44,035 nt of DNA from a virus: positions 1-44,035 of the IMG/VR virus record IMGVR_UViG_3300042310_000471; one strand, 5' to 3'. Made by a program: the position numbers and the translations under genes. The notes beneath the pieces were generated by a model. That model had not been told where the DNA came from and did not search any database. It saw only the letters and a list, made by a program, of their open reading frames with translations. Of this stretch, positions 1,869-34,005 are shown one piece after another. The first letter of the stretch is position 1; every line of letters starts with the position of its first letter.

Positions 1869-4816
1869 TGCCATTCCTTGACGGTACACGTACCAGTACA
1901 TTGACAATGGACCACACGCAGGATGTGTTGGTAACCATTACAAACCCTATTGGTATTCTTCCACCACCGTCTTGGGATGGTCAGCTAAAAAACAAGGGCA
2001 CTAACTTCACGTTTAGTGGCCACCTTGGTTTTAGTGGACAGTTGACAATAGTTTCGACAAGGTACGGGATCAATGCAACTACATGGGGATGGGACCTAAA
2101 GGCTACAGTAGTAGTTAGTAATGGGCACGGCGCGACGCAGACAACAACGGTTACTGTTGCTACTGGCACTTCTACTGCTTACTTTGTTGATGCCGCCGCA
2201 ACCTATGCTGGATCGTTTAGTGCCAGTGTTGGCACAGACAAGTTGTGGGACATCGCAGAAGCGGCGTTTAGTTCATCTAGTGCTCCAACTCAGTTTCCAT
2301 CACAGACTTCGTACACTTGGTATGAGAGAAGTACAGTAGGATCCACAGCTACATGTAGTCTGTCCGTTGGTGGTTCTACAGTCACGGCTACCAATACGGT
2401 GTCGGCAACCAGGCAGACTGCAAACTACACAGCAAGCCTAAGCGCCAATGGTGCTGTTACCGGTCCTATGACTCATGACTTCGGCGTCACCGAAATCAAG
2501 GTCAATGGCACAACCGTACCGGACCTATCGCATAACCAGACTCAAGGTATACAAACCGCTACTGAATGGTCGTTAGGGTTGGAAGCCGATGACCCGCTTG
2601 GTATCTATCGCAGTGCATCTGGCACAATAAGTACAAGCGTGTGCCTACCTCGCAGTGTTGGCATGTTTGGACGCATCCGTGCTTGGGATGGCGCGTACCC
2701 AGACTCAGTCACAGTCGCGATTGCGGGCTACGATGGAAGTTCACGCAACGTTACTGCATCAAGTGGTAGTTGGGCAGGTAACGACACGTTCAATAACTAC
2801 TCGTCAACCACGACGCTAACAGACATGACTGCTGGTACAGGAACGCTGACTACGTCGCTCAATGACGTACCTACGTGGATATCAGCCGCCTTATCTGGAT
2901 CGTCACTGACGACTAACGGAGACAACAACACAGACACGCGTGTGATGTTTCGTGGTTGGCGCTTCACTGGTTGGTCGGTTGCAGAGACTAATAACCGTTC
3001 CATTTCTGGTACAGGTAACGACCGTACATACACACCGTTTGAAGGCATGTCTGGCTACCGTTACTTAGATGTTCAAGTCAAAGCACAGAGTGGCACAAGT
3101 GTGCCTGGTGTCATCACCCTGACTGACTATCACGGCAACACCAAGACGTGGAACGTGACCGGCGCAACGACATCGTATGCCACCGTGACGCTTGACTTGT
3201 GTTCTCCTGATTCACATTCAGTGGCCGCAATACCGGACAAAGACCCAAAGGATAATCCGTACCCACGGAAGAACACCACCAGCACGTCGTTTGCTGGCTC
3301 AGAGAGCGTCGATAGCGCGTTCTGGGGTGTTACTTCCTGCCAGAGGTTACGCGTGTCTAGTGGGGCAATAGACATCGGCACAACGATTCTCAAGTATACG
3401 AATACGGATTCCACGTACGTCCCAGACACACCGACATCTGTCTTTGAGCGTGTTACTCCTGCGATTGTTGCGGAAGTTGGAACGACAACTTACTTCTACG
3501 GACGCAGATTTTGGCAACAAGATCGCGATGGCCGTAACGAAGAGGAGAGCGACGTCCATTGGCAGATGACTGTCGGTGGTGGGACAGGTGTTACTACTTA
3601 CACTGTTAGTATGCTTACTATCGCGCAGCTCGCATCACAGGTTAATGCAAGTGACGTAAGTATTGTCAGGCATCCGGGTTGGGTTATGACTAGATCCGTT
3701 GCACAGCCTGGCGGTGGAACATGTGCGGCATCGCAACCACCTTTGCGTGATTGCTACCTCAATGGTGACACAGGATACGCTACGTGGTTGTATGGTGGCG
3801 GCGCCTTGCTTACACCTAACGCTACATCTGGTACAGACTTTGCCTACGGGCACCAGATAACAGCTGGCACGATTACAGCGCAGACAGTCTTCGACCGCAT
3901 CAATGGGAATTTCCCACCTGACTTGTACGATCCATTCGACGTCAACGGCGGCACAGACAGCGCTTTGTATCTTGGTGGTGTGTCTTTACTTCGTGGCATC
4001 GCGCACGGTGGGTTACTTGACACCAACGGTGAGATAGTTACTACTGGCACGGTGGACTTGATACGCACTAGTGACAGCAGTAACCGGGGTTCAGATTCGA
4101 CCATAGACGCGCAGGGAAGATACTACACTGGCACACCTTGGGGACTAGGCGAAGTAAACCACCACGCAGACTACGTTACCAAAAGTCAAAACATAAACCC
4201 TGTGCATACCAGCCACCGACACCGTGTGTGGTTCCGCGATGTCCTACAAGAAATCTTCTCTGCTATCGAAGCGTTTAAGAACAAAGGATTTCTGATGCTG
4301 GGTAAAGCTACTAAGATCAACGTGCGATGGCAAGACAATCCTTTGACTGAGCGGTTACCGGGTACGGTCATCACGTCAGACAACATTGTTAAGTTACGAG
4401 ATTCTGACAACAACGGTGACTACATCTTTATCTTGATAAAGGGAAGCACAAGTTACACGCTGAGTTATACAACGGACAACGGCAATACAAAGGGAGACTA
4501 CCTTACAGTGACAGCAGGTACAGCCGGGTTTGAATGCGACACTAACCGTGGGTTGCTTATCATCATCTACGACGACGGCACTACGGCATCACCAGGGAAC
4601 ATCAAGTACAGATTGAGTAGAGATCAAGGCACTACTTGGACTACCGCTGCCAACTGCACAATTAACAGCGTTACTCCACAGGTAGGTAAAGTGCTTGACA
4701 CAAGTTACGATCCACACCTTGGTGGGATGTTGTATTCAATCTTTGACATTGGTGGAACAAAGAAGGTCTGTCGCTCTACTGACTTAGGAGCAACATGGGA
4801 AGTAGTCCTTACATAA
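1868..4816 (+). CDS. Large beta-rich tail tip/receptor-binding candidate with BNR-like repeats
   Basis: A 982-residue protein, very rich in Thr, Ser, Gly and Val with almost no charged clusters in its first 700 residues, typical of stacked beta or Ig-like modules. The last 150 residues contain Asp-box (BNR)-like turns of the form S-x-D-x-G-x-T-W: SRDQGTTWT and STDLGATWE, with a weaker copy at TTDNGNTK. Such repeats occur in sialidase-type beta-propellers and in phage tip proteins that bind glycans. It is the last gene of the tail module and is followed by a strong terminator. A receptor-binding or tip role is inferred from position and repeats; enzymatic activity cannot be claimed. Confidence 0.75.
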   Translation: MPFLDGTRTSTLTMDHTQDVLVTITNPIGILPPPSWDGQLKNKGTNFTFSGHLGFSGQLTIVSTRYGINATTWGWDLKATVVVSNGHGATQTTTVTVATGTSTAYFVDAAATYAGSFSASVGTDKLWDIAEAAFSSSSAPTQFPSQTSYTWYERSTVGSTATCSLSVGGSTVTATNTVSATRQTANYTASLSANGAVTGPMTHDFGVTEIKVNGTTVPDLSHNQTQGIQTATEWSLGLEADDPLGIYRSASGTISTSVCLPRSVGMFGRIRAWDGAYPDSVTVAIAGYDGSSRNVTASSGSWAGNDTFNNYSSTTTLTDMTAGTGTLTTSLNDVPTWISAALSGSSLTTNGDNNTDTRVMFRGWRFTGWSVAETNNRSISGTGNDRTYTPFEGMSGYRYLDVQVKAQSGTSVPGVITLTDYHGNTKTWNVTGATTSYATVTLDLCSPDSHSVAAIPDKDPKDNPYPRKNTTSTSFAGSESVDSAFWGVTSCQRLRVSSGAIDIGTTILKYTNTDSTYVPDTPTSVFERVTPAIVAEVGTTTYFYGRRFWQQDRDGRNEEESDVHWQMTVGGGTGVTTYTVSMLTIAQLASQVNASDVSIVRHPGWVMTRSVAQPGGGTCAASQPPLRDCYLNGDTGYATWLYGGGALLTPNATSGTDFAYGHQITAGTITAQTVFDRINGNFPPDLYDPFDVNGGTDSALYLGGVSLLRGIAHGGLLDTNGEIVTTGTVDLIRTSDSSNRGSDSTIDAQGRYYTGTPWGLGEVNHHADYVTKSQNINPVHTSHRHRVWFRDVLQEIFSAIEAFKNKGFLMLGKATKINVRWQDNPLTERLPGTVITSDNIVKLRDSDNNGDYIFILIKGSTSYTLSYTTDNGNTKGDYLTVTAGTAGFECDTNRGLLIIIYDDGTTASPGNIKYRLSRDQGTTWTTAANCTINSVTPQVGKVLDTSYDPHLGGMLYSIFDIGGTKKVCRSTDLGATWEVVLT

Positions 4817-4817
4817 A

Positions 4818-4847
4818 AAAGCCCGCCTTGGGGAAAAAGCGGGCTTT
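4818..4847 (+). terminator. Intrinsic terminator of the late/tail operon
   Basis: Perfect 9-bp stem AAAGCCCGC/GCGGGCTTT with a 12-base loop, starting one base after the stop codon of the tip gene. The run after the stem is only TTT-GC, so termination may not be complete. The downstream bases CTTTGCTACATAAGGGG recur almost unchanged at 7304-7321. Confidence 0.8.
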
Positions 4848-4867
4848 GCTACATAAGGGGGAAAGAC

Positions 4868-4906
4868 ATGAACCGTAGCAATAAGAGTATACACATATTC
4901 CAATGA
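4868..4906 (+). CDS. 12-residue leader peptide coupled to the LuxR-type gene
   Basis: An ATG with a strong upstream AAGGGGGAAAG reads MNRSNKSIHIFQ and then a stop. The stop overlaps the ATG at 4903 (AATGA), so ribosomes finishing the leader could restart on the regulator gene, which has no good ribosome-binding site of its own. This is the arrangement of translationally coupled leader peptides. Coding potential rests only on the site and the overlap. Confidence 0.45.
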   Translation: MNRSNKSIHIFQ

Positions 4907-5142
4907 ATACCCAAGATAACCAAGCCCAAAAAGAGTTAACGCGACAACAGAAACGCGTTTGGGCAGCGGTGACTCAGCTTGGATTCTACGGTGCAGCCAA
5001 AGTGCTAAAGAAAAGTGAACGCACACTTGAATGGCACATGTACCGAATATCAAAAACACTTGGCACTAACAACAGACACGAGCAAGCAAAACTTTTGGGA
5101 ATCCGCATCAGGATAGAACGCATTAATGTTGACGGTGCGTGA
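4903..5142 (+). CDS. LuxR/GerE-type helix-turn-helix regulator
   Basis: A 79-residue protein. Residues about 12-65 fit the GerE/LuxR DNA-binding domain: LTRQQKRVWAAVTQLGF, then KVLKKSERTLEWHMYRISKTLG and NNRHEQAKLLG, matching the conserved L-T-x-R-E, the recognition helix with R-T-V-x-x-H and the K-L-G-x-x-N-R tail. No receiver or ligand domain is present, so it is a bare DNA-binding module, as found in some phage transcription activators. It is the first gene after the tail terminator and is probably an early regulator. Its likely targets include the promoter at 5129-5158, but this is inference. Confidence 0.75.
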   Translation: MNTQDNQAQKELTRQQKRVWAAVTQLGFYGAAKVLKKSERTLEWHMYRISKTLGTNNRHEQAKLLGIRIRIERINVDGA

Positions 5143-5158
5143 ATCTATGTGACATAAT
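5129..5158 (+). promoter_or_regulatory. Sigma70-like promoter upstream of ERF gene
   Basis: TTGACG, 18-bp spacer, CATAAT. The -35 lies in the last codons of the LuxR-type gene. The -10 is the left arm of a palindrome described separately, so a bound regulator would block or recruit polymerase. Confidence 0.55.
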
Positions 5159-5169
5159 GCCTCATTATG
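5153..5169. promoter_or_regulatory. Palindromic operator candidate CATAATG-N3-CATTATG
   Basis: Perfect 7-bp inverted repeat with a 3-base centre. It covers the -10 hexamer and the probable transcription start of the recombination operon. The upstream LuxR-type protein is an obvious candidate ligand; this is inference. Confidence 0.5.
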
Positions 5170-5178
5170 GAGGTAGAT

Positions 5179-5838
5179 ATGGAACGCACAAGCGTAGAGT
5201 TAGACAAGATTGCACCGGCCCTTGTGGGGATACACAATGAGTTACGTGCGATTGTAAAGGATTCCAAGAATCCAGCATTCAAGAGTAAGTATGCATCGTT
5301 GGATGCTATTCTCGACACCATCCGTCCAATACTGGTGAAGCACGGTTGCTTCGTTACGCAAACGGTAACCGAGGGTTCGACACATAACGTTACGATGCGT
5401 CGTAAGCAAAACAACGAGCAGACCGACCAGACAGTGGAGACCTTCCAAGAGACGTCTGTTTTCACCATTACAGCGGTCTCACGTTGTATCCATCTGTCCG
5501 GTCAATGGATCGAATCCTACAGCATCGTCCCTGTTGCTAAGTTTGACGCCCATGGTTTGGGAGCTGCACAAACATACGCACGAAGGTTTTCCCTTGCTAG
5601 TCTTCTCGCACTTGCGACAGACGAAGATGACGATGGGAACGCCGCAACACATGCTGTTGTCCCTGTCCAGAAACCTATCGGCATTGGCGATCAGTTTTGG
5701 ATGGCAGTCAATCAACGCTATGGCACAGACTTGACGCCTGACCGTAAAAAGGAAATCTATATGGAGTTTTCTGGTACGGATAAGCCATCACCGGAAGGCT
5801 ACACCTTGGCACTGAGAAAGTTGCAGGAGAAGAAATGA
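5179..5838 (+). CDS. erf: ERF-family single-strand annealing recombinase
   Basis: About 219 residues from the ATG at 5179, chosen because GGAGGT at 5169-5174 is well spaced for it; the in-frame ATG at 5167 has no site. The N-terminal part fits the ERF family (P22 Erf type): KNPAFKSKYASLDAILDTIRPIL, the HG turn, and DAHGLGAAQTYARRFSLASLLALATDEDDDGNAA, with the conserved G-x-x-x-T-Y-x-R-R and the acidic D-E-D-D-D-G stretch. ERF proteins form rings that anneal complementary single strands in phage recombination and genome circularisation. It is followed at once by a membrane protein and a Gam/Gp157-like protein, the usual ERF neighbourhood. Confidence 0.9.
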   Translation: MERTSVELDKIAPALVGIHNELRAIVKDSKNPAFKSKYASLDAILDTIRPILVKHGCFVTQTVTEGSTHNVTMRRKQNNEQTDQTVETFQETSVFTITAVSRCIHLSGQWIESYSIVPVAKFDAHGLGAAQTYARRFSLASLLALATDEDDDGNAATHAVVPVQKPIGIGDQFWMAVNQRYGTDLTPDRKKEIYMEFSGTDKPSPEGYTLALRKLQEKK

Positions 5839-6131
5839 GTTACATCTTAGTTAGTCTATTTTGTACGACGCTTGGTTTTATCGTGGGAGGATTTGTTCTC
5901 CTCCCAAAGCGCATTGAAGATGACACCATCATTCAATACACAAATCAGCGTGGTGAGTTGGTCTTTGCTAGGACGGTTGGTCATCAGTATCAAGGTACAG
6001 ACTTTGTTTCAGTACAGCGGTGCGATGAAGCTGGGGAGCCAATCGGCATTGTGTTTGTGTTGGATGCAAATCGTTTGACTTACAAAGATAGCAAGGGGAC
6101 ATCATGGACGAAACAAGTCTTCAACAAATAG
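5835..6131 (+). CDS. Small membrane-anchored protein, unknown
   Basis: A 98-residue protein overlapping the ERF stop (ATGA). The first 24 residues (MSYILVSLFCTTLGFIVGGF plus VLLP) form one hydrophobic helix followed by KR, consistent with an N-terminal anchor. The remaining 70 residues are soluble and polar. Its end overlaps the next gene by 28 bases. No family recognised; its place between recombination genes may only reflect operon packing. Confidence 0.7.
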   Translation: MSYILVSLFCTTLGFIVGGFVLLPKRIEDDTIIQYTNQRGELVFARTVGHQYQGTDFVSVQRCDEAGEPIGIVFVLDANRLTYKDSKGTSWTKQVFNK

Positions 6132-6652
6132 AGGTGTGTGGTGATTGGATGGTAGACGTCGAAACAGGTGAGATTGTAGGTATGGCTCCTGACAGCAACA
6201 AGTACATCAAGCGTGTGGAAACAATCCACGACCTTGAGCGCTACATGTCTAACCTCATGGAAATGGAAACCGATCTTGCTGCACGTAAGTTGGCGCTCGC
6301 TGCGATTATAGAGAATGCCAACAAACTGATTGGTCAGCTGTCAGCGCGTGTTGATTGGTACAAACTAAAGCACCACGATGAGATCCGTTGTGTAGCTGAG
6401 GGAAACCTGCAACGTGGAAGCAAAACATATCGCTGTGTTTACGGCACGGTCAGCTTCCGTAAGAAGAATCCTCGTATTGTTGTCAAGGATGACGAAAAGG
6501 CTGTTGCTTGGGCAGAGGAACACGTGCCTGGTGCTGTCGTCACCACGAAGAAAGTCCTCGTGTCCAAGGTAGACATCGAAAGCTTGCCAGAAGACTCTGA
6601 TGCGTTCGAAGTCATTCCTGCTGAGGAAAGCATGGCAATCAAAACGCTATGA
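6104..6652 (+). CDS. Gp157/Gam-like protein (putative host-nuclease inhibitor)
   Basis: A 182-residue protein. Residues about 40-105 form a long charged helix or coiled coil, followed by a short beta region GSKTYRCVYGTVSFRKKNP and a stretch with DEKAVAWAEEHVPGAV. This layout resembles siphovirus Gp157 and Mu-Gam-type proteins, in which a helical hairpin precedes a small beta domain. Gam proteins bind DNA ends and shield them from RecBCD-type nucleases; Gp157 has been linked to phage resistance or recombination. Adjacency to ERF supports the assignment. Family call by pattern, not by search. Confidence 0.7.
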   Translation: MDETSLQQIEVCGDWMVDVETGEIVGMAPDSNKYIKRVETIHDLERYMSNLMEMETDLAARKLALAAIIENANKLIGQLSARVDWYKLKHHDEIRCVAEGNLQRGSKTYRCVYGTVSFRKKNPRIVVKDDEKAVAWAEEHVPGAVVTTKKVLVSKVDIESLPEDSDAFEVIPAEESMAIKTL

Positions 6653-6921
6653 CATTGAAAGATGTTGACGCGTTCATCACAGAGGAGTTTTCAACGAACG
6701 CTAGATTCGTTCGTTGGATACGTCCTGTGTACTGCGATGGTCTTACGCTGACGAACGTCACAACCAAGAACGAACCTGAATACATTCGGTTGATTCAGAT
6801 TTCATGGAAGGGTGACGTGGTTAGCACTATCAACTTTGACCACGACATACGCAAGTGGTCAGAGGGACGAAGGCACATAGCCTTTCGCATTTGGAAGGAG
6901 ATAGAAAAGTTTAATGCCTGA
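6649..6921 (+). CDS. Hypothetical early protein
   Basis: 90 residues, overlapping the preceding stop (ATGA) and the next start by 8 bases. Rich in Arg, Trp and Thr, with the segment RLIQISWKGDVVSTINFDHD suggestive of a small alpha/beta fold. No motif recognised. Expressed in the recombination/replication operon. Confidence 0.65.
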   Translation: MTLKDVDAFITEEFSTNARFVRWIRPVYCDGLTLTNVTTKNEPEYIRLIQISWKGDVVSTINFDHDIRKWSEGRRHIAFRIWKEIEKFNA

Positions 6922-7273
6922 ATACGCTTTTCATGCACGGAGAGCAACCAAGGTCGGAAGTCGAATCAACATCGGCCTCCGACCGTTTATGCTTCGCTTC
7001 TCTAAGGATGAGTTAGAATTCATTTATGCCGCAGCTGAACGACGTGGTTTGTACGTCTCAGCACTCGCCAGGGAAGCTGGACAGTTACTTATCAGCGGTG
7101 CACTGCAACCGGTGCTAAAGCGAGCAGTAACACGCAGGGAAGAGAGACTACAGATCAACCTAGGGGAAACGGTCCATAGTCAGCTACAGCAGTTCTGTGA
7201 TAGCAAGAAACCAAGATGGATGCTTACAACAGTACTACGATCGGCGATGTTAGACATTGCGAGAATGAGATAG
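6914..7273 (+). CDS. Putative tandem ribbon-helix-helix-like protein
   Basis: 119 residues with two similar halves. Residues about 20-62 (NIGLRPFMLRFSKDELEFI, then ALAREAGQLLI) and 77-118 (RLQINLGETVHSQLQQF, then TTVLRSAMLDIAR) each show a short beta strand followed by two helices, as in ribbon-helix-helix DNA-binding proteins. A fused RHH pair could act as a single-chain dimer. This is a structural guess. It is followed by a terminator-like hairpin and a strong ribosome-binding site for the replication gene. Confidence 0.6.
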   Translation: MPEYAFHARRATKVGSRINIGLRPFMLRFSKDELEFIYAAAERRGLYVSALAREAGQLLISGALQPVLKRAVTRREERLQINLGETVHSQLQQFCDSKKPRWMLTTVLRSAMLDIARMR

Positions 7274-7283
7274 ACGACCAGGG

Positions 7284-7303
7284 ACCCGGTTTTGTAGCCG
7301 GGT
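7284..7303 (+). terminator. Weak hairpin terminator plus recurring RBS element
   Basis: ACCCGG/CCGGGT, 6-bp stem, 8-base loop, followed by TCTTTGC. The following CTTTGCTACACAAGGGG repeats the block after the tail terminator (4844-4861) with one difference in that stretch. In both places it supplies the AAGGGG ribosome-binding site of the next gene, so a hairpin-plus-RBS unit seems to have been copied. Confidence 0.45.
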
Positions 7304-7326
7304 TCTTTGCTACACAAGGGGAAAAT

Positions 7327-8148
7327 ATGTGGGTAAAACTAGACTGTAAATTGCCAATGAACAAAGCTGTTCGGCGGCTATCCGGTGATGCGTTCCGGTG
7401 GTACATATACGCACTCTGCTACTGCGGGGAACACCTGACAGACGGACGTTTAGACAGCATGGATGTTGAGACAATTACCGCGTGTATGCGCGTTCCTGAG
7501 TCAGCATTTACCGAGTGTTTGACGTCCGGCTTACTGCGCGAAACAGACGCTTGGCAGTATGAATTTGTGGGCTTTACGGACACTCAAACATCACGTGATT
7601 ACGTCGAAAAACGACGAGCTGATGACCGTGCTCGAAAGGCAAAAGTAGTTCCACGCCGCAACAATTCCGCAGCGGAATCCGCACCGGAATCCACAGTGGA
7701 GTCCGCAGTAGATTCCACGCGTATAGAATTAAGAATTAAGAATAAAGAAATAGAATCAGATAAAGATATATGTATAAGAGAAGTAATTACTAATTCATCG
7801 ATTGCTGTCGCAACCGAGGCATTGACTCCAAAGGTATGCGTAGCTATGTACGTGGATGCATGGCGAGAGAAGTACGGGAGTGCCCCTACAGCCTCGCTAG
7901 GCGCCCTAGGGGCGCACTTTAAGCGTGTCATTGGCAAAACGCCCGATGAGACTATAAAGTCGTCCATTCTGGCGTTCTTTAGGCTATCTGATCCGTGGGT
8001 TTTACAGAACGCTCACAAGCCTACAATTTTGGTATCTCAATGGGATTCTTTGGTGACTGGAAGTGCAATGATAAAGACATCAAAACGCTCACTGAGTCTT
8101 GATGTCGCAGACAGATTTCGCGAATCTATTTTGGAGCAAATGTCATGA
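7327..8148 (+). CDS. Replication initiator (lambda O / replisome organiser type) with internal origin
   Basis: 273 residues from the ATG at 7327, preceded by AAGGGGAAA; earlier in-frame codons lie in the hairpin region. Residues 1-95 (MWVKLDCKLPMNKAVRRLSG, WYIYALCYCG, LDSMDVETITACM) fit the winged-helix N-terminal domain of phage replisome organisers. Residues about 110-160 form a low-complexity linker (E-S-A-P-E-S-T-V-E-S-A-V-D-S-T) whose DNA holds 12-bp iterons and an AT-rich tract. The C-terminal 120 residues may contact the helicase loader encoded next. Lambda O has the same architecture, with the origin inside the gene. Start and iterons are seen; the replication role is inferred. Confidence 0.75.
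   Translation: MWVKLDCKLPMNKAVRRLSGDAFRWYIYALCYCGEHLTDGRLDSMDVETITACMRVPESAFTECLTSGLLRETDAWQYEFVGFTDTQTSRDYVEKRRADDRARKAKVVPRRNNSAAESAPESTVESAVDSTRIELRIKNKEIESDKDICIREVITNSSIAVATEALTPKVCVAMYVDAWREKYGSAPTASLGALGAHFKRVIGKTPDETIKSSILAFFRLSDPWVLQNAHKPTILVSQWDSLVTGSAMIKTSKRSLSLDVADRFRESILEQMS
7660..7800. other. Probable replication origin (iterons plus AT-rich unwinding tract)
   Basis: Four tandem 12-bp repeats at 7672-7719 (a fifth, degenerate copy at 7660-7671) are followed by about 80 bases made almost only of A and T with scattered G (7720-7800, for example AGAATTAAGAATTAAGAA). Iterons next to an unwinding tract inside the initiator gene are the design of lambda-type origins. Function not tested. 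Confidence 0.6.
7672..7719 (+). repeat. Four tandem 12-bp iterons
   Basis: Units GCGGAATCCGCA, CCGGAATCCACA, GTGGAGTCCGCA and GTAGATTCCACG share a G-G-A-x-T-C-C core. The core is itself near-palindromic, as expected for a dimeric initiator-binding site. They encode the Glu-Ser/Asp-Ser linker repeats of the initiator. Confidence 0.8.
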
Positions 8149-10268: not shown

Positions 10269-10757
10269 ATGGATAAGTGTCCAAAGTGCGGTGTACCCGC
10301 AATGCAAGTAGAGAACGGTGAGTGTATCGAGTGCCGTTTGTTTCAAGTACACCGCGATCCAGAACCGGTGACGTTCGCAGAGAAGCTCAAGGTGCTCGTG
10401 TCTCGCCCAGGCACAGACACGTTCTTCACGCTCATGGCGCCCCTGTGGGCAGGGAGGATAGCTGTTCGCTTTCTTCCTGTTCCTACAGGGAAATGTGTCA
10501 AGTATCTGTACTTCGAAAGAGGTAGCCTGGTTACCATGGCTGTGCACTTCAAAAGCAATGCAATGGATGATTCTAAACTGAGCATGATGGATCTAGAATC
10601 CGACCAATGGCATTTGCTGCCAGAGGATATGGAATTCAGCTCCCCGGTAGAAGACCGGGAAGCACGTGCCATCAGAGTCTTGAACCACTTCAGTACAGAT
10701 GATCGCAAGCGCTTCTTCGCACACTGTGAACATGCCGAGACTTGGATGGACCAGTAA
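10269..10757 (+). CDS. Zinc-ribbon protein, unknown function
   Basis: 162 residues. The first 25 hold two C-x-x-C pairs (CPKCG and CIECR) spaced 15 apart, a treble-clef or zinc-ribbon knuckle. The remaining 135 residues have no motif I know. The gene stands alone: a 166-bp structured gap precedes it, and GGAC tetranucleotide repeats flank it on both sides (about 10130 and 10761), the second beginning three bases after the stop codon. This isolation suggests a separately acquired unit. Confidence 0.7.
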   Translation: MDKCPKCGVPAMQVENGECIECRLFQVHRDPEPVTFAEKLKVLVSRPGTDTFFTLMAPLWAGRIAVRFLPVPTGKCVKYLYFERGSLVTMAVHFKSNAMDDSKLSMMDLESDQWHLLPEDMEFSSPVEDREARAIRVLNHFSTDDRKRFFAHCEHAETWMDQ

Positions 10758-11671: not shown

Positions 11672-12214
11672 ATGGAACCAATTATTTTTAACCGGCCGGA
11701 TATCCGCGAATTAGCGGGTGAATTGATCAAATGCGGAATTTGTACGGGTGTAAATGTTAGCGGGCATATTGTCGCAAATTGGGCGCATTTCGGCCCGGCC
11801 GTGATTTATGTTAATAGCTGCTGCGATACTGAATTTATATGCCCGTCAAGGGTCGCGTACCGGGCCGGTGATTATGTCAATTCCCGGAAATCATACCTGC
11901 AGCGGATAACAGAAAACGCGATCGCCGCGGTATTACACGAAATGTGCGAAAACTGCAGCGTTAAACCGGTTTGCTGCGCAGCAAACGACGAATTCGAATT
12001 ACGCGAAATAGAAGAATCACATGCAGCATTTGAATACCTCAAAAATGGTGATTATGAATTCGTACGCGATCGCGCGCATGAATTAGGTATTGATGCTGCA
12101 CATTTGTACCTTGACGGTGAAAACCAACTGCAGCTAACAATTAATGGAACGGATGCATACCGGGTGAAATTCCGGGTGTATTTTTCTGATCAGATAATAG
12201 GGGAAATCGAATAA
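11672..12214 (+). CDS. Island protein, paralogue of the late-operon cassette protein
   Basis: 180 residues, unknown family. Residues 1-91 align with the 95-residue product of 33718-34005: both begin M-E-x-I-x-F-x-R-x-D-x-R-E-L-A-x-E-L, share Y-V/I-N-S-C and C-P-S, and have a Y-V-N before a C-terminal helix. The extra 90 residues here contain a cysteine cluster (CENCSVKPVCC) and a second, acidic half. Seven or more cysteines may bind metal. Codon choice is GAA/AAA-only, unlike the rest of the phage. It opens an operon with the next two genes. Confidence 0.7.
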   Translation: MEPIIFNRPDIRELAGELIKCGICTGVNVSGHIVANWAHFGPAVIYVNSCCDTEFICPSRVAYRAGDYVNSRKSYLQRITENAIAAVLHEMCENCSVKPVCCAANDEFELREIEESHAAFEYLKNGDYEFVRDRAHELGIDAAHLYLDGENQLQLTINGTDAYRVKFRVYFSDQIIGEIE

Positions 12215-15194: not shown

Positions 15195-16505
15195 ATGTAT
15201 ACGTTGTTGTTTGGTGACTGTCTGGATGTGTTGTCATCTGTTGATGATTGCAGTGTTGACAGTGTTGTTTGTGATCCACCTTATGGTTTGAGTTTCATGG
15301 GTAAGAGGTGGGACTATGATGTTCCATCTGTTGCTATATGGAGAGAGTGTTTAAGGGTGTTGAAGCCTGGTGGTTACTTGTTGGCGTTTGCTGGTAGTAG
15401 GACTCAGCATCGTATGGCGGTGAATATCGAGGATGCTGGGTTTGAGATTAGGGACATGATTGCTTGGGTTTACGGGAGTGGGTTTCCCAAGAGTCATAAC
15501 GTGAGTTGTTCTATAGATAAGATGGCTGGTCATGGGAATCGGGGTAGGGCTATACCTACTGTTGGTAGTTACCAGTCGTCTGATGTGGATCAGGAGAACA
15601 AGCTTACTAGTAATCCTGTAGGTCCTTATGTTGCGAAGACAGATGAGGCTAAGAGGTGGTCGGGTTATGGGTCAGCACTGAAGCCTAGTATTGAGCCTAT
15701 TACGGTGGCAAGGAAGCCGCTTGATGGAACGATAGCTGAGAATGTCTTGAAGTGGGGCACTGGTGCTATGAATATAGATGGCTGCCGTGTACCTATGGAT
15801 CAGGGTGACTTTGATAAGTTGTCTCGTGGTGTGGATGCTATACGTGAGCGTGGCGGATCCATGGACAACAGCTGGAAGAATAGCAGTGACTTAAGTGGCG
15901 CTAACCCAGCGAATCCGTTAGGTAGATGGCCAGCTAACTTCATCCATGATGGCAGCCAAGAGGTATTGGACTTGTTCCCTGATGCCAAGGGTGGTTCTTG
16001 GGTTAATACAGATGGCGCTCGTCACTTTAACAATAACGGGAAGAAGACCGGGCATGTCGCTTCTGGTCGAAGCGATTCTTCTAGTGGTTCTGCTGCTCGC
16101 TTCTTCTATTGTCCTAAGGCCAACAAGGCTGATCGCAATGAAGGGCTAGACGACTTCGAAGAGCAGTACAACCGTGGCAGCGGTACGCATAACAACGGAC
16201 AGGGTAATACCCGTCTAGGGAATGCAGCTGAGAGAGCCGCTGGTATCACACATGTGGAGTTACAGAAGGTAAGTAACCCGCATCCAACGGTAAAGCCTAC
16301 AGATCTTATGCGTTACCTATGTCGGTTGGTTACTCAGCCTGGTGGCACTGTGCTGGACCCGTTCATGGGTTCTGGGACTACAGGTAAAGCTGCTATGCGT
16401 GAAGGGTTTGAGTTTATAGGCTGCGAAATGGACCTTGAGTACTACAAGATAGCAACTGCGCGTATCGTGCATGCCTACAAACAAAAAAACCACCAGACAT
16501 CATAG
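15195..16505 (+). CDS. Orphan DNA methyltransferase (N6-adenine or N4-cytosine, beta-class order)
   Basis: 436 residues, ATG after AAGGGGAAG. Residues 28-34 are DPPYGLS (catalytic motif IV), followed by WRECLRVLKPGGYLLAF. Near the C-terminus, GGTVLDPFMGSGTTGKAA is the SAM-binding F-x-G-x-G motif. Motif IV first and motif I last is the beta-class order. The 250-residue middle contains the target recognition region, rich in Gly, Asn and Ser. No restriction partner lies nearby, so it is probably an anti-restriction or regulatory methylase. Codons are T-rich and differ from both the island and the late genes. Confidence 0.85.
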   Translation: MYTLLFGDCLDVLSSVDDCSVDSVVCDPPYGLSFMGKRWDYDVPSVAIWRECLRVLKPGGYLLAFAGSRTQHRMAVNIEDAGFEIRDMIAWVYGSGFPKSHNVSCSIDKMAGHGNRGRAIPTVGSYQSSDVDQENKLTSNPVGPYVAKTDEAKRWSGYGSALKPSIEPITVARKPLDGTIAENVLKWGTGAMNIDGCRVPMDQGDFDKLSRGVDAIRERGGSMDNSWKNSSDLSGANPANPLGRWPANFIHDGSQEVLDLFPDAKGGSWVNTDGARHFNNNGKKTGHVASGRSDSSSGSAARFFYCPKANKADRNEGLDDFEEQYNRGSGTHNNGQGNTRLGNAAERAAGITHVELQKVSNPHPTVKPTDLMRYLCRLVTQPGGTVLDPFMGSGTTGKAAMREGFEFIGCEMDLEYYKIATARIVHAYKQKNHQTS

Positions 16506-16543
16506 GTTTCGTCCAGCAAGCTGGGTCTATGCGATCCGGTGGT
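16489..16543. terminator. Bidirectional branched terminator
   Basis: ACCACC pairs with GGTGGT, enclosing CATAG/CTATG and CCAG/CTGG stems. A-run on the left (16483-16489) and TCTTCTT on the right suit termination from both sides. It lies at the end of the methyltransferase gene, facing the minus-strand operon. Confidence 0.6.
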
Positions 16544-16603
16544 CTTCTTGTGAGTCAGTAGTTGTTTCAAACGTAGTCAGGTTGCCCTGCCGTCTCCATT
16601 GTA

Positions 16604-16673
16604 AGTTGTAAAGAAATACTTTACAACTGGAGCCAGTTATCAATTACCAATCCAAGGTTGTTATCCTGGCTCC
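16604..16673 (-). repeat. Two adjacent stem-loops downstream of the minus-strand operon
   Basis: AGTTGTAAAG-N5-CTTTACAACT (16604-16628, perfect 10-bp) followed by GGAGCCAG/CTGGCTCC (16629-16636 with 16666-16673, perfect 8-bp). They lie just past the last gene (16678) and probably form its transcript end. The first matches the style of a hairpin at 17146-17170. Confidence 0.65.
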
Positions 16674-16677
16674 ACGT

Positions 16678-16917
16678 CTAGTTAGATTCTACCTTTTTGT
16701 TGACGTCAACAACATGGTCCCAGTCATCGATGTGCCAGTCATCTGCTGCGATGTCCTTGGGTTCTAGGTCAAGGTGCTTGGATAACATCGCGTTGTTTGG
16801 ACCGTACACCCAGATAAACATGTTCTCTGGTTCGTCGTAGTACATGTACTTCCTCCAGTCATATCGGCTGATCGGCTGGCCTTCCATGAGTGCATCAACC
16901 ACTTCGCTAAACTTCAT
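16678..16917 (-). CDS. DUF2829/Tad2-like protein 1
   Basis: 79 residues from the ATG at 16917, with GGGAGGT upstream. It begins MKFSEVVDALMEGQPISRYDW and later has LEPKDIAADDWHIDDW. DUF2829 (Tad2) proteins typically start M-x-F-x-E-A-L-x-x-L-K-x-G-x-x-V-x-R-x-x-W and end D-L-x-A-x-D-W. Tad2 binds and sequesters the nucleotide signals of the Thoeris defence system. Last gene of a six-gene minus-strand operon; its start overlaps the preceding stop (ATGA). The family call rests on N- and C-terminal pattern; ligand residues cannot be judged. Confidence 0.65.
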   Translation of the reverse strand: MKFSEVVDALMEGQPISRYDWRKYMYYDEPENMFIWVYGPNNAMLSKHLDLEPKDIAADDWHIDDWDHVVDVNKKVESN

Positions 16918-17132
16918 TTTGTTACCTCCCAAGAGTCGCAAGATAAATCTTTGGGTGTCAGATCTAACGTTGTGTACGACTGAATTTTGTAAATCTCTCC
17001 ATCTGATGTCATGTAGAAGTCAAACGTATTGCACTCTTCGTCATACTTCAAGAAAGCTGTGGTGTCATCCCAACTGGTTTTGCGTACACGCTTGCCTTGC
17101 ATGAGTGCTTCGGCTACTTCACTAAACTTCAT
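16914..17132 (-). CDS. DUF2829/Tad2-like protein 2
   Basis: 72 residues from the ATG at 17132, preceded by GGGAGGTAGAGGG. Starts MKFSEVAEALMQGKRVRKTSW and ends LTPKDLSCDSWEVTK. Its first 12 residues are nearly identical to protein 1, so the two are recent paralogues, but the centre differs (DDTTAFLKYDEECNTFDFYM against RKYMYYDEPENMFIWVYG). It is separated from the gene before it by 93 bases holding a hairpin and two direct repeats, the only gap in this operon. Confidence 0.65.
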   Translation of the reverse strand: MKFSEVAEALMQGKRVRKTSWDDTTAFLKYDEECNTFDFYMTSDGEIYKIQSYTTLDLTPKDLSCDSWEVTK

Positions 17133-17145
17133 CCCTCTACCTCCC

Positions 17146-17170
17146 AACTTGTAAGGATTTCTTACAAGTT
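17146..17170 (-). promoter_or_regulatory. Hairpin next to the ribosome-binding site of Tad2-like 2
   Basis: AACTTGTAAG-N5-CTTACAAGTT, perfect 10-bp arms, ends one base before the GGGAGG site on the minus strand. It could protect the mRNA after processing or modulate translation. Confidence 0.6.
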
Positions 17171-17179
17171 CAACTGTTG

Positions 17180-17218
17180 CCAAAATGGAAAGAGTTAGTG
17201 GTACGTTCCAAAATGGAA
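17180..17218. repeat. Two direct repeats CCAAAATGGAA (operator candidates)
   Basis: Copies at 17180-17190 and 17208-17218, 28 bp apart start to start. The core CCAAAATGG is nearly palindromic and the right copy extends to TTCCAAAATGGAA. They lie between the HTH-fusion gene and the two downstream Tad2-like genes, where an autoregulatory site would be expected. Confidence 0.65.
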
Positions 17219-17225
17219 CCAACCA

Positions 17226-17630
17226 CTATTGAGTCTGCTCCGGTGTTGCTACTGCATCCCACGTAAGTACAACCCAATCCTTAGCCATCAAGTCTTCAAG
17301 GGAGAAATCGATGGTGTACAAGATGATTTCACATCCGCTTTCATTGTTGACTTGAAGGAACCAGTGTTCCCCTAGGTCGTAGTAGTAGTAGAGCTTATCT
17401 GGCCAACACACACGCCTAAAGGGCAACCCAGTCTTGATTAGGTTCATGCAGCTAAAGAGGGAAGACCGTTTGAGTTTAACTTCACCTCTGATTTGTGCAT
17501 CCTTTATCTTGTGCACCGTGGTTATGCTGACGCCAAATGACCTAGCAATCGTGTCTAGTGTTTGACCTTGCGTAATCATCTGACGTATTTGGACCATCTG
17601 CTCATCGGTCAGTTTTCTTCGTTTATCCAT
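17226..17630 (-). CDS. Helix-turn-helix fused to a DUF2829/Tad2-like domain (protein 3)
   Basis: 134 residues. Residues 1-50 are a resolvase-type helix-turn-helix (LTDEQMVQIRQMI, TLDTIARSFGVSITTVHKIK). Residues about 55-130 repeat the Tad2-like layout: SSLFSCMNLIKTGLPFRRVCW at the start and FSLEDLMAKDWVVLTWD at the end. The fusion of DNA binding with a small-molecule-binding fold suggests a ligand-responsive regulator. Start overlaps the preceding stop (TAATG). The direct repeats just downstream are candidate binding sites. Domain calls by pattern only. Confidence 0.65.
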   Translation of the reverse strand: MDKRRKLTDEQMVQIRQMITQGQTLDTIARSFGVSITTVHKIKDAQIRGEVKLKRSSLFSCMNLIKTGLPFRRVCWPDKLYYYYDLGEHWFLQVNNESGCEIILYTIDFSLEDLMAKDWVVLTWDAVATPEQTQ

Positions 17631-17932
17631 TAGTCTTCGTACGCAATCTCACGGTTAAAGTCTTTGAGGATTTCGGTAAGCTCTTCCAGCCACTCGTCCA
17701 CTACCGTTGTCTCGATCAACTCATCGACCATGTCAAGGACTGCCTGGTGATGTGGTTCTGGTTGAAGGGTGCCGTGCTTGACGTTACGCATCTCTTGGAT
17801 GACTGCACCAACGATTACCTGCTCGCATCTAGCGATCACAGCACCGTATCCGTTATCTGCACAGACTTCGTAGAATTCAATCCAGTGCTTAGGGAAGTCA
17901 AACCCGTTATCTTTTACTGATATGTGTGTCAT
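17630..17932 (-). CDS. Hypothetical protein in the Tad2-like operon
   Basis: 100 residues from the ATG at 17932 with GGGAG upstream. Acidic and helical, with EPHHQAVLDMVDELIETTVV and many Glu/Asp at the C-terminus. It shows neither the N-terminal nor the D-W pattern of its neighbours. Both ends overlap adjacent genes by one to four bases. Function unknown. Confidence 0.65.
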   Translation of the reverse strand: MTHISVKDNGFDFPKHWIEFYEVCADNGYGAVIARCEQVIVGAVIQEMRNVKHGTLQPEPHHQAVLDMVDELIETTVVDEWLEELTEILKDFNREIAYED

Positions 17933-18147
17933 AGAACAATCTCCCAATCGTCTCGAATCTTTTGTAATTGCTTGTCGTATAAGTCGGAAGCTGCTGGACT
18001 CCACACCATGCGATTCCCTGATGGGAAATGGAGTACTAGATGATCCGCTTGTGTTGTAGGTAGGCGTACTATCATCCCTTCCGCCCATGCTTTACGTCGT
18101 ATTCCGCGTCCTTCAAATAGACACCGGTACGATTCACCGAAATTCAT
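17929..18147 (-). CDS. DUF2829/Tad2-like protein 4 (closest to the family pattern)
   Basis: 72 residues from the ATG at 18147 with GTGGAG upstream. MNFGESYRCLFEGRGIRRKAW followed by AEGM is very near the family start M-N-F-G-x-A-x-x-x-L-x-x-G-x-x-x-R-x-x-W-x-G, and the C-terminus has MVWSPAASDL and RDDWEIVL, matching the family W-x-P-S-x-x-D-L and D-W-E-V. It is the best single candidate in the cluster for a Thoeris signal sponge. Confidence 0.7.
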   Translation of the reverse strand: MNFGESYRCLFEGRGIRRKAWAEGMIVRLPTTQADHLVLHFPSGNRMVWSPAASDLYDKQLQKIRDDWEIVL

Positions 18148-18335
18148 GGAATGTACTCCACCCAATCATTGGACAACATGTCTGCTGATGACAACGTAGC
18201 ATGACCTTCAAAAATACGGTTGCCACCGCCATCAAGCCGATATCTGATAATGGACTTCTCTACCAACTGAAGAAGCCAGCGAGCTTCAAACCGAGTGACA
18301 GGTGTGCCCTTCATCAACTCGGAGAATGCCCACAT
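18144..18335 (-). CDS. DUF2829/Tad2-like protein 5 (divergent)
   Basis: 63 residues if started at the ATG at 18335 (MWAFSELMKGTPVTRFEARW); an upstream ATG at 18389 would give 81 but has no better site. It keeps F-S-E-L-M-x-G-x-x-V-x-R and ends SSADMLSNDWVEYIP, but the tryptophan after the Arg is shifted. First gene of the operon, transcribed away from the MuF-type gene. Confidence 0.55.
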   Translation of the reverse strand: MWAFSELMKGTPVTRFEARWLLQLVEKSIIRYRLDGGGNRIFEGHATLSSADMLSNDWVEYIP

Positions 18336-18445
18336 GAAACCTTGTCTTTTTCCCAATGTATGTCTCCCCACATGCCGTGATAGCATCAAAATGCGTTACA
18401 CTATTCTATAACAAGTGTTGGTTGTATAGCAAGGAGAATGTTCTT
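18336..18445. promoter_or_regulatory. Divergent promoter region between Tad2-like operon and MuF gene
   Basis: 110 bases. On plus, TATAAC at about 18402-18407 is a possible -10 without a clear -35. On minus, TTGCTA-N16-TATAGA overlaps the same bases. The two directions may therefore compete. Exact start sites are uncertain. Confidence 0.35.
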
Positions 18446-19534
18446 ATGGACAATGAATGGATGGTTTACGTGTGTGGTGAGCATTGTTGCTCTTCTAGGA
18501 ACAAGTCACTTAAGAAGGACACATTCAACTTGATTGGTGGTGCGCTTGGTTATTACAGGGACGAGATTGACTCTGTGCTAACACAGGCAAAAGACAAACT
18601 AAGTAGCACGTTTGTGAACGTGTACGATCGCGTCATTGACATCCTTGCTATGTCTCAGCAGCCTGATGTTACTGTGTTTCAGATTCAGCAGTACTACCGT
18701 GAAATCATTGACTTACTGCAGGATCCAGACAAGCAAACGCAGTATGTGCAAAGCGTAGAAGAAGACATAACTGTTTCCCAGGATGCGGCTATCGCAGCTA
18801 CATTGACGTTCTACCCGTCGGTCATCATTGCCAACATGGGCAAGAAGCCAGCACGGGTTATGAAACCTACTATCCGCACTCCAGGGAAAGATGAATTCGT
18901 TACTGGTATCAGTTTTGGTGGTACGGCAATCGCAAACATAATCAGCGACACAACCACAGATGTGTTCACGCGAATCACAACCAAGTTTAGGGAATACATC
19001 ACCAACCCTGACTTGACTCGTGAGGATTTCATTGACTCTGTAAACGAAGCTATAGATACGATCGATAGCTACGCTGAGAATATATCCACTACGGAAGTAG
19101 AGGCTACTACACGACGCGTTGTGAAGCGCATCAATGCCTTGAACCAGCCACTGGTGAAGTCATACCGACGTGTTGCGGTCATCGACAACAAGACTTGCGT
19201 AGGATGCCTGGCGCTTCATGGAAAGCTTTATGCATTGGTAGATGAGTTTGAGTCGCATCCTCGGTGTAGGTGTATGTTGGTGCCGGTTACAATGACTTGG
19301 ATGGAGTATGCATCTGTTCAGGGTGGCGCCGTACCTAACTACATGTCACTGGATCAGATACTGGGAATGATGCCACGTGCGATACTGGCTGACATCCTTG
19401 GTCCGGGACGACTTGCTCTATATGATGCTGGACTGCCACTGGAACGCATGATATATATTGAACAGACAGCGGAGTATGGCCACCTAATCCGAATTACTCC
19501 GTTGTATGTCTTGCGCGAACAAGGCATTCCCTAG
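18446..19534 (+). CDS. MuF-type minor head protein, separate from the head genes
   Basis: 362 residues from the ATG at 18446 with AAGGAGAA upstream. Residues about 225-280 carry the phage Mu gpF (head morphogenesis) signature: RRVAVIDNKTCVGCLALHGK then HPRCRCMLVP, that is R-x-x-x-x-D-x-x-T-C-x-x-C-x-x-x-x-G and H-P-x-C-R-C. MuF proteins associate with the portal and are ejected with DNA. Usually the gene follows the portal; here it is 9 kb upstream in its own unit. The N-terminal 40 residues contain CGEHCCSS. A repurposed or toxin-carrying MuF cannot be excluded. Confidence 0.8.
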   Translation: MDNEWMVYVCGEHCCSSRNKSLKKDTFNLIGGALGYYRDEIDSVLTQAKDKLSSTFVNVYDRVIDILAMSQQPDVTVFQIQQYYREIIDLLQDPDKQTQYVQSVEEDITVSQDAAIAATLTFYPSVIIANMGKKPARVMKPTIRTPGKDEFVTGISFGGTAIANIISDTTTDVFTRITTKFREYITNPDLTREDFIDSVNEAIDTIDSYAENISTTEVEATTRRVVKRINALNQPLVKSYRRVAVIDNKTCVGCLALHGKLYALVDEFESHPRCRCMLVPVTMTWMEYASVQGGAVPNYMSLDQILGMMPRAILADILGPGRLALYDAGLPLERMIYIEQTAEYGHLIRITPLYVLREQGIP

Positions 19535-20989: not shown

Positions 20990-21696
20990 TATTTTGATAT
21001 ATCCGTTTGATCGTCGCCGTCAATGTCTTTGACGATGTCGTAAGTTGGCTTATTTGTATTCCACATAGCTGCGTAGATTGTTGGCAACTGCTCTTCGATG
21101 ATGAGTTTAATGTCGTTGGCTATTTGACGGTGCTCATACTGTGTGTCGTCCTGCGTTCGTAGGTCAACGTAGTGCAGCCAGTCACGGATGTTGCCAGCCA
21201 TGTACATGCGTGTCGGTGTTGCAAGTGGCAATATCATTCGCGCTGTCTCTGTTGCAAACCCTGACTGCAACAAGTCGTTGTAAACAGTGAATGCGCTTTG
21301 GACTACTTCATCTGCCCGTATGAGCACTAGTTGTTGATGATCAGTTAGTTCTTCCCACTCTGGTAATGGCAAGCTTGATTGGCGGTTGTGTGAGCCAGAG
21401 AGGCGTTGCATACTGATTACCTTTGGTGGCTCTGATGGTACAGGTGCATATCTTTGTGAAAATTCTTGGAATGAAAAGGATCTATGTCTAAGAATCTGTG
21501 CAGCTATAGCCCGTGATGTTTTGATTTCAATAACCATGTGCGCCATCTCAAAGATGCTCCAGTGTTTGTGGCTGATGCAGTACTTGAGAAGACGTGTTAT
21601 CTCTGGGTTCTCTTGGTTTGGTGATGACACGCGAGCGCAGTAAGCAATGTGTTGCTCTGCGTCCGGTGTAATCGTTACAAGTTTAGCGATGTTCAT
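20989..21696 (-). CDS. thyX: Flavin-dependent thymidylate synthase ThyX
   Basis: 235 residues. The ThyX signature R-H-R-x-x-S-x-x-E-x-S-x-R-Y is present at residues 70-83 (RHRSFSFQEFSQRY), as are the His-rich N-terminal helix region and NIRDWLHYVDLR near residue 170. It makes dTMP from dUMP using FAD and methylene-folate, independently of ThyA. Its gene overlaps both dUTPase and the C5-methyltransferase genes, so thymidine supply and DNA methylation are in one operon. Confidence 0.93.
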   Translation of the reverse strand: MNIAKLVTITPDAEQHIAYCARVSSPNQENPEITRLLKYCISHKHWSIFEMAHMVIEIKTSRAIAAQILRHRSFSFQEFSQRYAPVPSEPPKVISMQRLSGSHNRQSSLPLPEWEELTDHQQLVLIRADEVVQSAFTVYNDLLQSGFATETARMILPLATPTRMYMAGNIRDWLHYVDLRTQDDTQYEHRQIANDIKLIIEEQLPTIYAAMWNTNKPTYDIVKDIDGDDQTDISK

Positions 21697-22720
21697 TTAT
21701 TCTCTCCCCAATCCAGCGCATGACAGGTACAGCCATTGAGTTGCCAAGTGCCTTGTATCTTGGCCCGTCTGGAGTCTCTGGCATGATGTTAGTGTATCCA
21801 TCAGGGAATCCCTGCAAGCGTTCACACTCGGTCGGTGTGAGCCTTCGTACTTGTTGGTTGCAATCAACAAGAATGCGTCCGGAGTTGCCATCCTGCCCGT
21901 TCAACCCACCACCCATATGCGCTCCATCTGACAACGTGCCACAGATTCGCTTAACCCACGCGCCACAACAATTCAATCCTTCATCATATGGCGTGTGATG
22001 TAGGCCACTAGTCCATTCTTCACACCAAGGGCAGTACGCATCTTCAATGCACCAGCATCCGCATTCATCCCAATCGCAGCTATGTTCTACGCACCAGACT
22101 CCACTTTCTGTTTCATCGCTTCTTGTAAAGCCATCGGAAGTTTTCCCTTTGTTGCTTGCCTCCGCAGGTATCCCTCGCAGGCTTTCTGGCTCAAGTAGTA
22201 CTTCTGCGGCACGTCTGCTGTCCCCTGAAGAATGTGCGACAACAAAGACTCTTCTACGGCGCTGGGGTACTCCAAAGTATTGAGCATCAAGCACTCGGTA
22301 GGCCCACCCATACCCGATGTCGCCCAACGCCCCGACGAAGGAACCAAAATCCCGTCCTCCTGAGCTTGACAAAACACCGGGGACGTTTTCCCAGACAACA
22401 TATTCCGGCCTGTAGTGCTCAACCATGTCAATGAAGGTGAGCGCAAGGTTTCCTCTTGGATCGTCAAGTCCTTTTCGTCGGCCAGCAATAGAGAATGCTT
22501 GGCACGGGGTGCCTCCAACGATAAGGTCAACTGTTTTTCTGTCAAGATTCCATTCCTTATACTTGGTCATGTCGCCCAGGTTAGGGACATGTGGATAGTG
22601 ATGTGCTAATACCTGCGATGGAAACTTTTCAATCTCAGCAAAAGCAACAGGAGTCCACCCCAAGGACTCCCAGGCTACCGATGCGGCTTCAATGCCACTG
22701 CACACAGACAAGTAACGCAT
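21683..22720 (-). CDS. C5-cytosine DNA methyltransferase with cysteine-rich insert
   Basis: 345 residues from the ATG at 22720, one base overlapping the previous stop. Motifs: SVCSGIEAASVAWESLG (I), GGTPCQAFSIAG with catalytic Cys73 (IV), WENVPG (VI, about 110-115), QRRRRVFVVA (VIII), LTPTECERLQGFPDGY (IX) and GNSMAVPV (X). The target-recognition region (about 165-285) holds ten cysteines between 210 and 260 with C-x-x-C pairs and nearby histidines, a probable zinc-binding insert. No restriction enzyme accompanies it. It probably protects phage DNA from host restriction. Confidence 0.9.
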   Translation of the reverse strand: MRYLSVCSGIEAASVAWESLGWTPVAFAEIEKFPSQVLAHHYPHVPNLGDMTKYKEWNLDRKTVDLIVGGTPCQAFSIAGRRKGLDDPRGNLALTFIDMVEHYRPEYVVWENVPGVLSSSGGRDFGSFVGALGDIGYGWAYRVLDAQYFGVPQRRRRVFVVAHSSGDSRRAAEVLLEPESLRGIPAEASNKGKTSDGFTRSDETESGVWCVEHSCDWDECGCWCIEDAYCPWCEEWTSGLHHTPYDEGLNCCGAWVKRICGTLSDGAHMGGGLNGQDGNSGRILVDCNQQVRRLTPTECERLQGFPDGYTNIMPETPDGPRYKALGNSMAVPVMRWIGERINEHR

Positions 22721-22926
22721 TATCTGACGCCAAGTGCTTTCAACCATAAAGGTGTTTGTGTTTCCTTAGTCACAGCAACGTGTGTCTTAAGGTCTTTGGC
22801 TGCTAGGTCAAGCGTTCTTTCAATCTCTGGTCGAATGGCGCCTTCGATAGCCAAGCACTTAGCTTCGCACGACGCGGCAATGATGACTTCCATTAACTCA
22901 CGGACTCTCTGGTTACGGTTTCTCAT
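22720..22926 (-). CDS. Hypothetical small protein upstream of C5-methyltransferase
   Basis: 68 residues, strongly basic N-terminus (MRNRNQRVREL) then a helical, Ala/Glu-rich body. AGGAGGGG precedes the start. Coupled to the methyltransferase by TAATG. No family recognised. Confidence 0.65.
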   Translation of the reverse strand: MRNRNQRVRELMEVIIAASCEAKCLAIEGAIRPEIERTLDLAAKDLKTHVAVTKETQTPLWLKALGVR

Positions 22927-33717: not shown

Positions 33718-34005
33718 ATGGAACATATCAATTTTGAGCGGGCAGATGTCAGAGAATTGGCAAACGAATTAGTTAGGCTTAGGGCATTGCCTGACATAGA
33801 CTTAGTGCAATATGTATACGACAATTGGTGGTGGTATGAAGCACCAATTGAGTATATTAACAGCTGCACTGATGCAGCCTACCTCTGTCCATCACATCTG
33901 GCAGTTGATGGGGAAAATTATGTTAACCGTTATCACCGTTACTTTTTTGATAAGGTGAAAAAAGCGATTGACACAATTTTAGAGGCAATGGAGGTGGGCA
34001 AATGA
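33718..34005 (+). CDS. Cassette protein, truncated paralogue of the island protein
   Basis: 95 residues, GTGGAGG upstream. Aligns with residues 1-91 of the 180-residue island protein; shared features are M-E-x-I-x-F-x-R-x-D-x-R-E-L-A-x-E-L, YINSC, CPS and NYVN. The final four residues (EVGK plus stop) come from the flanking repeat and match the end of the 40-residue module gene (LKVGK). Unlike the island copy it uses GAG freely, so it has been here long enough to drift. Function unknown; behaves like a moron gene. Confidence 0.75.
   Translation: MEHINFERADVRELANELVRLRALPDIDLVQYVYDNWWWYEAPIEYINSCTDAAYLCPSHLAVDGENYVNRYHRYFFDKVKKAIDTILEAMEVGK

Follow-up and report, generated by a model that had tools for sequence, protein, structure and literature searches.

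A variable phage operon of minimal Tad2-fold proteins with one copy fused to an HTH domain

Proteins of the Tad2 family are known for sequestering bacterial immune signals, and such sponges, as far as known, are usually encoded by one gene and have a recognised pocket. The label PF11195, under which the family is catalogued, cannot be read as "anti-Thoeris sponge" unless the pocket residues have been checked. The DNA stretch analysed in its full length (the window) is the IMG/VR virus record IMGVR_UViG_3300042310_000471 of 44,035 bases. An exact repeat of 127 bases is present at both of its ends (1-127 and 43909-44035), which makes it probable that the record is a complete phage genome, either circular or circularly permuted. 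The named phages searched contained no near relative, and relatives of its terminase, with an identity of ~41% or less, are scattered over many hosts and thus point to no particular one. The operon is located on the minus strand from 18356 to 16678 and comprises the following six genes, given in their order from F to A:

18144-18356, minus strand: gene F, a minimal Tad2-fold protein of ~70 aa
17929-18147, minus strand: gene E, Tad2-like, 72 aa, over the PF11195 cut-off
17630-17932, minus strand: gene D, 100 aa, conserved in relatives, not Tad2-like
17226-17630, minus strand: gene C, a fusion of an HTH and a Tad2-like domain
16914-17132, minus strand: gene B, Tad2-like, 72 aa, over the PF11195 cut-off
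16678-16917, minus strand: gene A, Tad2-like, 79 aa, with B as its nearest paralogue

The genes overlap by ATGA at the F/E, E/D and B/A junctions, the D/C junction reads TAATG and the only gap among them, of ~90 bases, lies between C and B. An initial annotation of this DNA had placed the start of F at the ATG at 18335. The start is most likely the TTG at 18356, since this codon is preceded by GGGGAG, the orthologues also start there and several of them are devoid of Met at the position of ATG 18335. DNA methyltransferases are present on both sides of the operon (15195-16505 and 21683-22747) and are possible anti-restriction genes; the types assigned are N6/N4 by Pfam and cytosine by the PADLOC models. 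The gene divergent from the operon is a head gene, Mu F-like by Pfam with a score below the cut-off. Elsewhere in the window, the ORFs 11672-12214 and 33718-34005 resemble paralogues of each other, both carrying R-x-D-[IV]-R-E-L-A and Y-[IV]-N-S-C, and Pfam returned no match for either of them.

Searches against PF11195 (Tad2-like, formerly DUF2829; curated Pfam cut-off of 25 bits) placed genes B (30.0 bits, E 7.5e-7) and E (29.2 bits, E 1.4e-6) over the cut-off, A narrowly below it (23.9 bits, E 6.2e-5) and C further below (14.4 bits, E 0.058), while no Pfam match was obtained for F. Leave-one-group-out profiles, from whose build the tested group was excluded to prevent circularity, scored 52.6 bits for A, 39.9 for B, 30.1 for C, 18.2 for E and 15.7 for F. 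With about 4000-8000 shuffled control sequences per group, the best shuffled score in any group was at most 11.8 bits, and all five groups scored above their own controls, including F as the weakest (15.7 bits versus at most 9.1 for its shuffles). The two doubtful cases, C (pLDDT 80.0) and F (pLDDT 86.9), were modelled with AlphaFold and the models compared with the PDB by Foldseek. SPO1 Tad2 was the top match of both with a probability of 1.00 (8smf in the case of C, for which HTH proteins also matched), and the nine best matches of F were all Tad2 chains (0.95-1.00). A profile of the array matched the solved structures of Myroides Tad2 (8.5e-10) and SPO1 Tad2 (3.1e-6). It is very likely that the five genes belong to the Tad2-like family, as had been claimed initially for five of the six operon genes; of the checks proposed at that time, the profile searches came out in favour of this assignment, with the DUF2829 cut-off itself passed by B and E, and so did the comparison of the folds of C and F with Tad2. 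Gene D was tried as a diverged Tad2 copy and rejected, its profile score of 9.3 falling within the null of column-shuffled alignments, and family searches gave no significant match for it. Pseudogenes or chance ORFs were rejected as well, since the orthologues are conserved and dN/dS, where it could be measured (B, C, E and F), lies far below 1. Purifying selection on the array copies is clear wherever it is measurable from the sequences, with dN/dS of 0 to 0.26 at unsaturated dS (0.02-0.24 for F and about 0.13-0.21 for B); A had a single comparison, which was saturated.

The gcADPR pocket of Tad2 is made up of the strand 1-2 loop, the strand 3-4 loop, strand 4, the loop following strand 4 and helix 3, with contributions from two protomers (PMC12043709). 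Ligands differ within the family: SPO1 Tad2 binds gcADPR and MoTad2 binds His-ADPR (PMC13299392). Within these pocket-lining loops, a set of 117 non-redundant canonical sequences carries two near-invariant motifs, namely W-N-G-K-G-M (between strands 1 and 2) and G-W-x-x-S-Q (before the last helix), although this set was partly picked by G-W-N-G-K and D-x-L-A-x-D-W, whose frequencies are therefore inflated, and G-W-x-x-S-Q was no selection pattern. Neither motif is found in A, B, C or F, and E is the sole copy to keep them in part (W-A-E-G-M and V-W-S-P-A-A-S-D). The core residues are kept in the copies, namely G, R (replaced by K in B), W (displaced in F by an insertion) and the D-W at the end (S-W in the case of B). 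The array proteins thus share with known Tad2 (SPO1 gp34.65, ModTad2/MoTad2, HgmTad2; PF11195) the succession of helix, beta strands and helix, the core G, R and W, the terminal D-W and their phage origin. However, known Tad2 is normally present in one copy per phage, is 84-104 aa in length in the solved structures and carries both pocket motifs, whereas this phage has five or six copies with domains of about 64-79 aa, mostly without these motifs and with one of them fused to an HTH.

These differences bear directly on the possibility that each of the five copies acts as a sponge for gcADPR, His-ADPR or cyclic dinucleotides as known Tad2 does, with slight differences in preference. Their family and fold would agree with it, as would the W-x-x-G-M and W-S-P-x-x-S-D retained by E. 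Nevertheless, four of the five copies have lost both near-invariant motifs, the shortened domains are devoid of the stretch which binds cyclic dinucleotides in some Tad2, and the tree sets the copies apart from canonical Tad2 (support 95/94), and we regard such a bank as very doubtful. The initial proposal of an anti-Thoeris sponge bank therefore stands as far as the Tad2-like family, the exceptional number and the diverged, old paralogues are concerned, but not for sponges of the known ligands, as A, B, C and F are without the pocket motifs; the comparison of pocket residues which it had called for turned out against it for most of the copies. Since both motifs are absent from these four, the known Tad2 ligands are unlikely for most of the copies, and ligand binding itself may have been lost in those without the motifs. 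That at least one copy binds a nucleotide ligand appears to be about an even matter.

Loss of the pocket with conservation of the core would also fit a protein-binding scaffold, in which the copies would inhibit defence proteins by direct contact, an activity reported for the DUF2829 anti-CRISPR AcrIIA7. AcrIIA7 carries a DUF2829 domain and occurs in mobile elements (PMC6739104), and the array profile matches a PDB entry named AcrIIA7 (9kzr_A, E 1.3e-4). However, this weak match is confined to profile positions 2-28, the N-terminal part, and AcrIIA7 is longer (a chain of 158 aa in the PDB). We consider the scaffold reading rather unlikely.

Relatives of SPO1 Tad2 were present in 388 of 50,697 annotated phage records, at a total of 393 places. 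Among 50 virus records with canonical Tad2, 47 gave one match and three gave two, and 15 bacterial genomes gave one or two matches each; a search based on SPO1 Tad2 would miss copies as diverged as those of the array, and the comparison is accordingly a guide and no census. The earlier statement that phages usually carry one such gene is consistent with these counts, and five copies in one phage appear exceptional. Tandem copies nevertheless have a precedent, since Staphylococcus phage SpaA1 contains three DUF2829 genes (P60-P61 and P7), of which P60 and P61 form a tandem pair that overlaps at the ends, and the presence of DUF2829 proteins close to AcrIIA7 homologues has been described (PMC6739104). 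In contrast to the array, the three copies of SpaA1 are of the canonical Tad2 type and an HTH fusion is not reported there.

In close relatives of the window, whose terminases are nearly identical, the operon is retained but its contents vary. They repeatedly contain the types F, E, C, B and A, and additional types (X and Y) are present. Five copies were detected in each of G001, G018, G019 and G021, four in G004-G006 and one to three in more distant phages with the HTH-Tad2 gene. In G001, a B head is followed by the tail of A, and further types occur as insertions or are lacking, which shows exchange within the array. In the tree, the paralogue groups cluster across phages, most of them with good support, and therefore most of the duplications are older than the split of these phages. 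This turnover is relevant to the possibility of a hetero-oligomer, in which the co-translated copies would form one mixed complex with pockets made from different chains. The pockets of canonical Tad2 do lie between protomers (PMC12043709) and translational coupling would favour assembly. However, an obligate complex would not tolerate a copy set which varies among close relatives and is reduced to a single detected copy in some genomes; a mixed complex therefore seems quite unlikely.

The HTH of gene C had been overlooked in the initial annotation. Residues 1-50 (about 17481-17630) form a resolvase-type HTH (HTH_7, 29.7 bits, over the cut-off) and residues 57-124 (about 17259-17462) the Tad2-like domain; in the AlphaFold model, three N-terminal helices are followed by a helix, four strands and a helix. 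A scan of IMG/VR for relatives of C yielded 20 contigs matching across both domains and 7 more matching the HTH only, and no HTH-Tad2 fusion could be confirmed in the GTDB one-per-species bacterial and archaeal genomes. In the phages G045, G046 and G047, whose records may be fragments, the HTH-Tad2 gene is the sole detected copy, which counts against the reading preferred below. The closest entries among viral structure models are labelled Tad2-like and some of them exceed one domain in length; fusions of Tad2-like domains with other domains may thus exist elsewhere.

The HTH fusion of C suggests that one copy of the array has a regulatory role. AcrIIA15 consists of an autorepressor HTH joined to an inhibitor (PMC10901769). 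Like AcrIIA15 and other HTH-fused anti-CRISPRs, C is a small phage protein with an N-terminal HTH and a C-terminal domain of a counter-defence type; its C-terminal domain is, however, Tad2-like instead of a Cas9 inhibitor and its operator is only hypothetical. By this analogy, C would regulate its own operon. It could also be that C is a phage transcription factor which senses a host immune nucleotide via its Tad2-like domain and releases the bank of binders only when the signal appears, making the array an inducible counter-defence operon, but we judge this unlikely.

Three non-coding features in and around the operon were considered in connection with its expression:

18373-18480, minus strand: conserved non-coding block separating the operon from the divergent head gene, with a promoter-like site of TTGCTA, 18 nt and TAGAAT
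17146-17170, unstranded: perfect inverted repeat AACTTGTAAG-N5-CTTACAAGTT, between C and B
16604-16628, unstranded: perfect inverted repeat AGTTGTAAAG-N5-CTTTACAACT, downstream of A

The block is 87% identical to those of G018 and G021, compared with 68-73% for the adjoining alignable coding stretches, and is almost invariant across eight phage sequences with diverged coding sequence; matches of the kind of its promoter-like site occur near chance level. The two palindromes are the longest perfect inverted repeats of the window (loops of 3-9), and the pattern common to them, expected 0.03 times in the window, is seen twice and nowhere else. Downstream of the array, a related palindrome recurs in G001, G004, G005, G018, G019 and G021. 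The block or the palindromes could serve as an operator. As the operator of C they find no support, since both are also present in G018 and G021, which are without the HTH-Tad2 gene, and these sites are therefore not specific to C.

A probable further Tad2-like domain is encoded at a distance from the array and on the opposite strand:

10269-10757, plus strand: candidate Tad2-like domain, at residues about 51-117 of a protein of 162 aa

The protein carries an N-terminal zinc-ribbon-like CPKC...CIEC motif, and its orthologue profile scored 33.5 against the array profile, versus at most 18.6 in 150 column-shuffled controls. Since no Pfam match above the cut-off was obtained for it, we regard it as only a probable sixth copy, in this case in a putative fusion with a zinc ribbon. 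The probable zinc ribbon and the HTH of C would be in line with a regulatory set, in which the Tad2-like domains sense metabolites or signals, C acts as the DNA binder and phage genes are controlled, with no part in counter-defence. The divergent orientation of operon and head gene across the conserved block may be read in the same way, as may the weak matches of A, B, C and E to PHROG 643, which is labelled as a transcriptional regulator. However, four of the five copies are without a DNA-binding domain and the turnover of copies resembles that of counter-defence genes more than that of regulators; we consider a purely regulatory set to be distinctly improbable.

The reading that we tentatively prefer, while placing it a little short of even, is that of a rapidly diversifying counter-defence operon, in which minimal Tad2-fold binders address different targets and an HTH-Tad2 member regulates the operon to which it belongs. 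A counter-defence role as such seems to us somewhat more probable than its absence. By analogy with Tad2, each copy would be a minimal Tad2-fold protein forming small oligomers with pockets between the subunits. Given the different pocket loops, the most likely targets would be immune signals that differ from copy to copy, or other small-molecule or protein partners, and not the classic Thoeris signal. One promoter would drive all genes of the operon, with largely coupled translation, and C, via its HTH, would most likely limit or adjust operon expression, as in fusion anti-CRISPRs of the AcrIIA15 type. That a phage lineage carries a changing set of Tad2-fold proteins devoid of the known pocket, alongside a DNA-binding fusion, suggests an adaptation of the fold to regulation and to ligands or partners other than the known ones. 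The five or six compact proteins may thus be of use for finding new immune signals or targets.

Several further non-coding elements accompany the array and its relatives. Rfam gave no match in the operon region or in the downstream stem-loop region of the window. In G018 and G021, an abiF RNA (Rfam RF03085, above the gathering score) is located directly downstream of the array, adjoining the TTGTAA palindrome (L077, 4519-4555, minus strand; L079, 1351-1387, plus strand). As abiF RNAs are linked to abortive-infection genes, it is possible that the phage copy serves as a decoy or an antidote. ARAGORN detected no tRNA in the window; in the tail of the array in G018 and G021 (L077 and L079), a tRNA-like sequence is present (GGGCTGTTAGTTTAACGG...). 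Conserved non-coding stem-loops are found downstream of the array in the window (16540-16675) and in L071, L074, L077, L078 and L079, for example TGGAGCCAG...CTGGCTCCA with the loop ATAAC..CTTTGGATTGGTAATTGA, and, as judged by eye, their stems seem to vary on both sides between relatives, in the manner of covariation. Finally, the gap between C and B contains two copies of the 11-mer TTCCATTTTGG, 28 bases apart (17180-17218), which occurs nowhere else in the window, where 0.02 occurrences would be expected.
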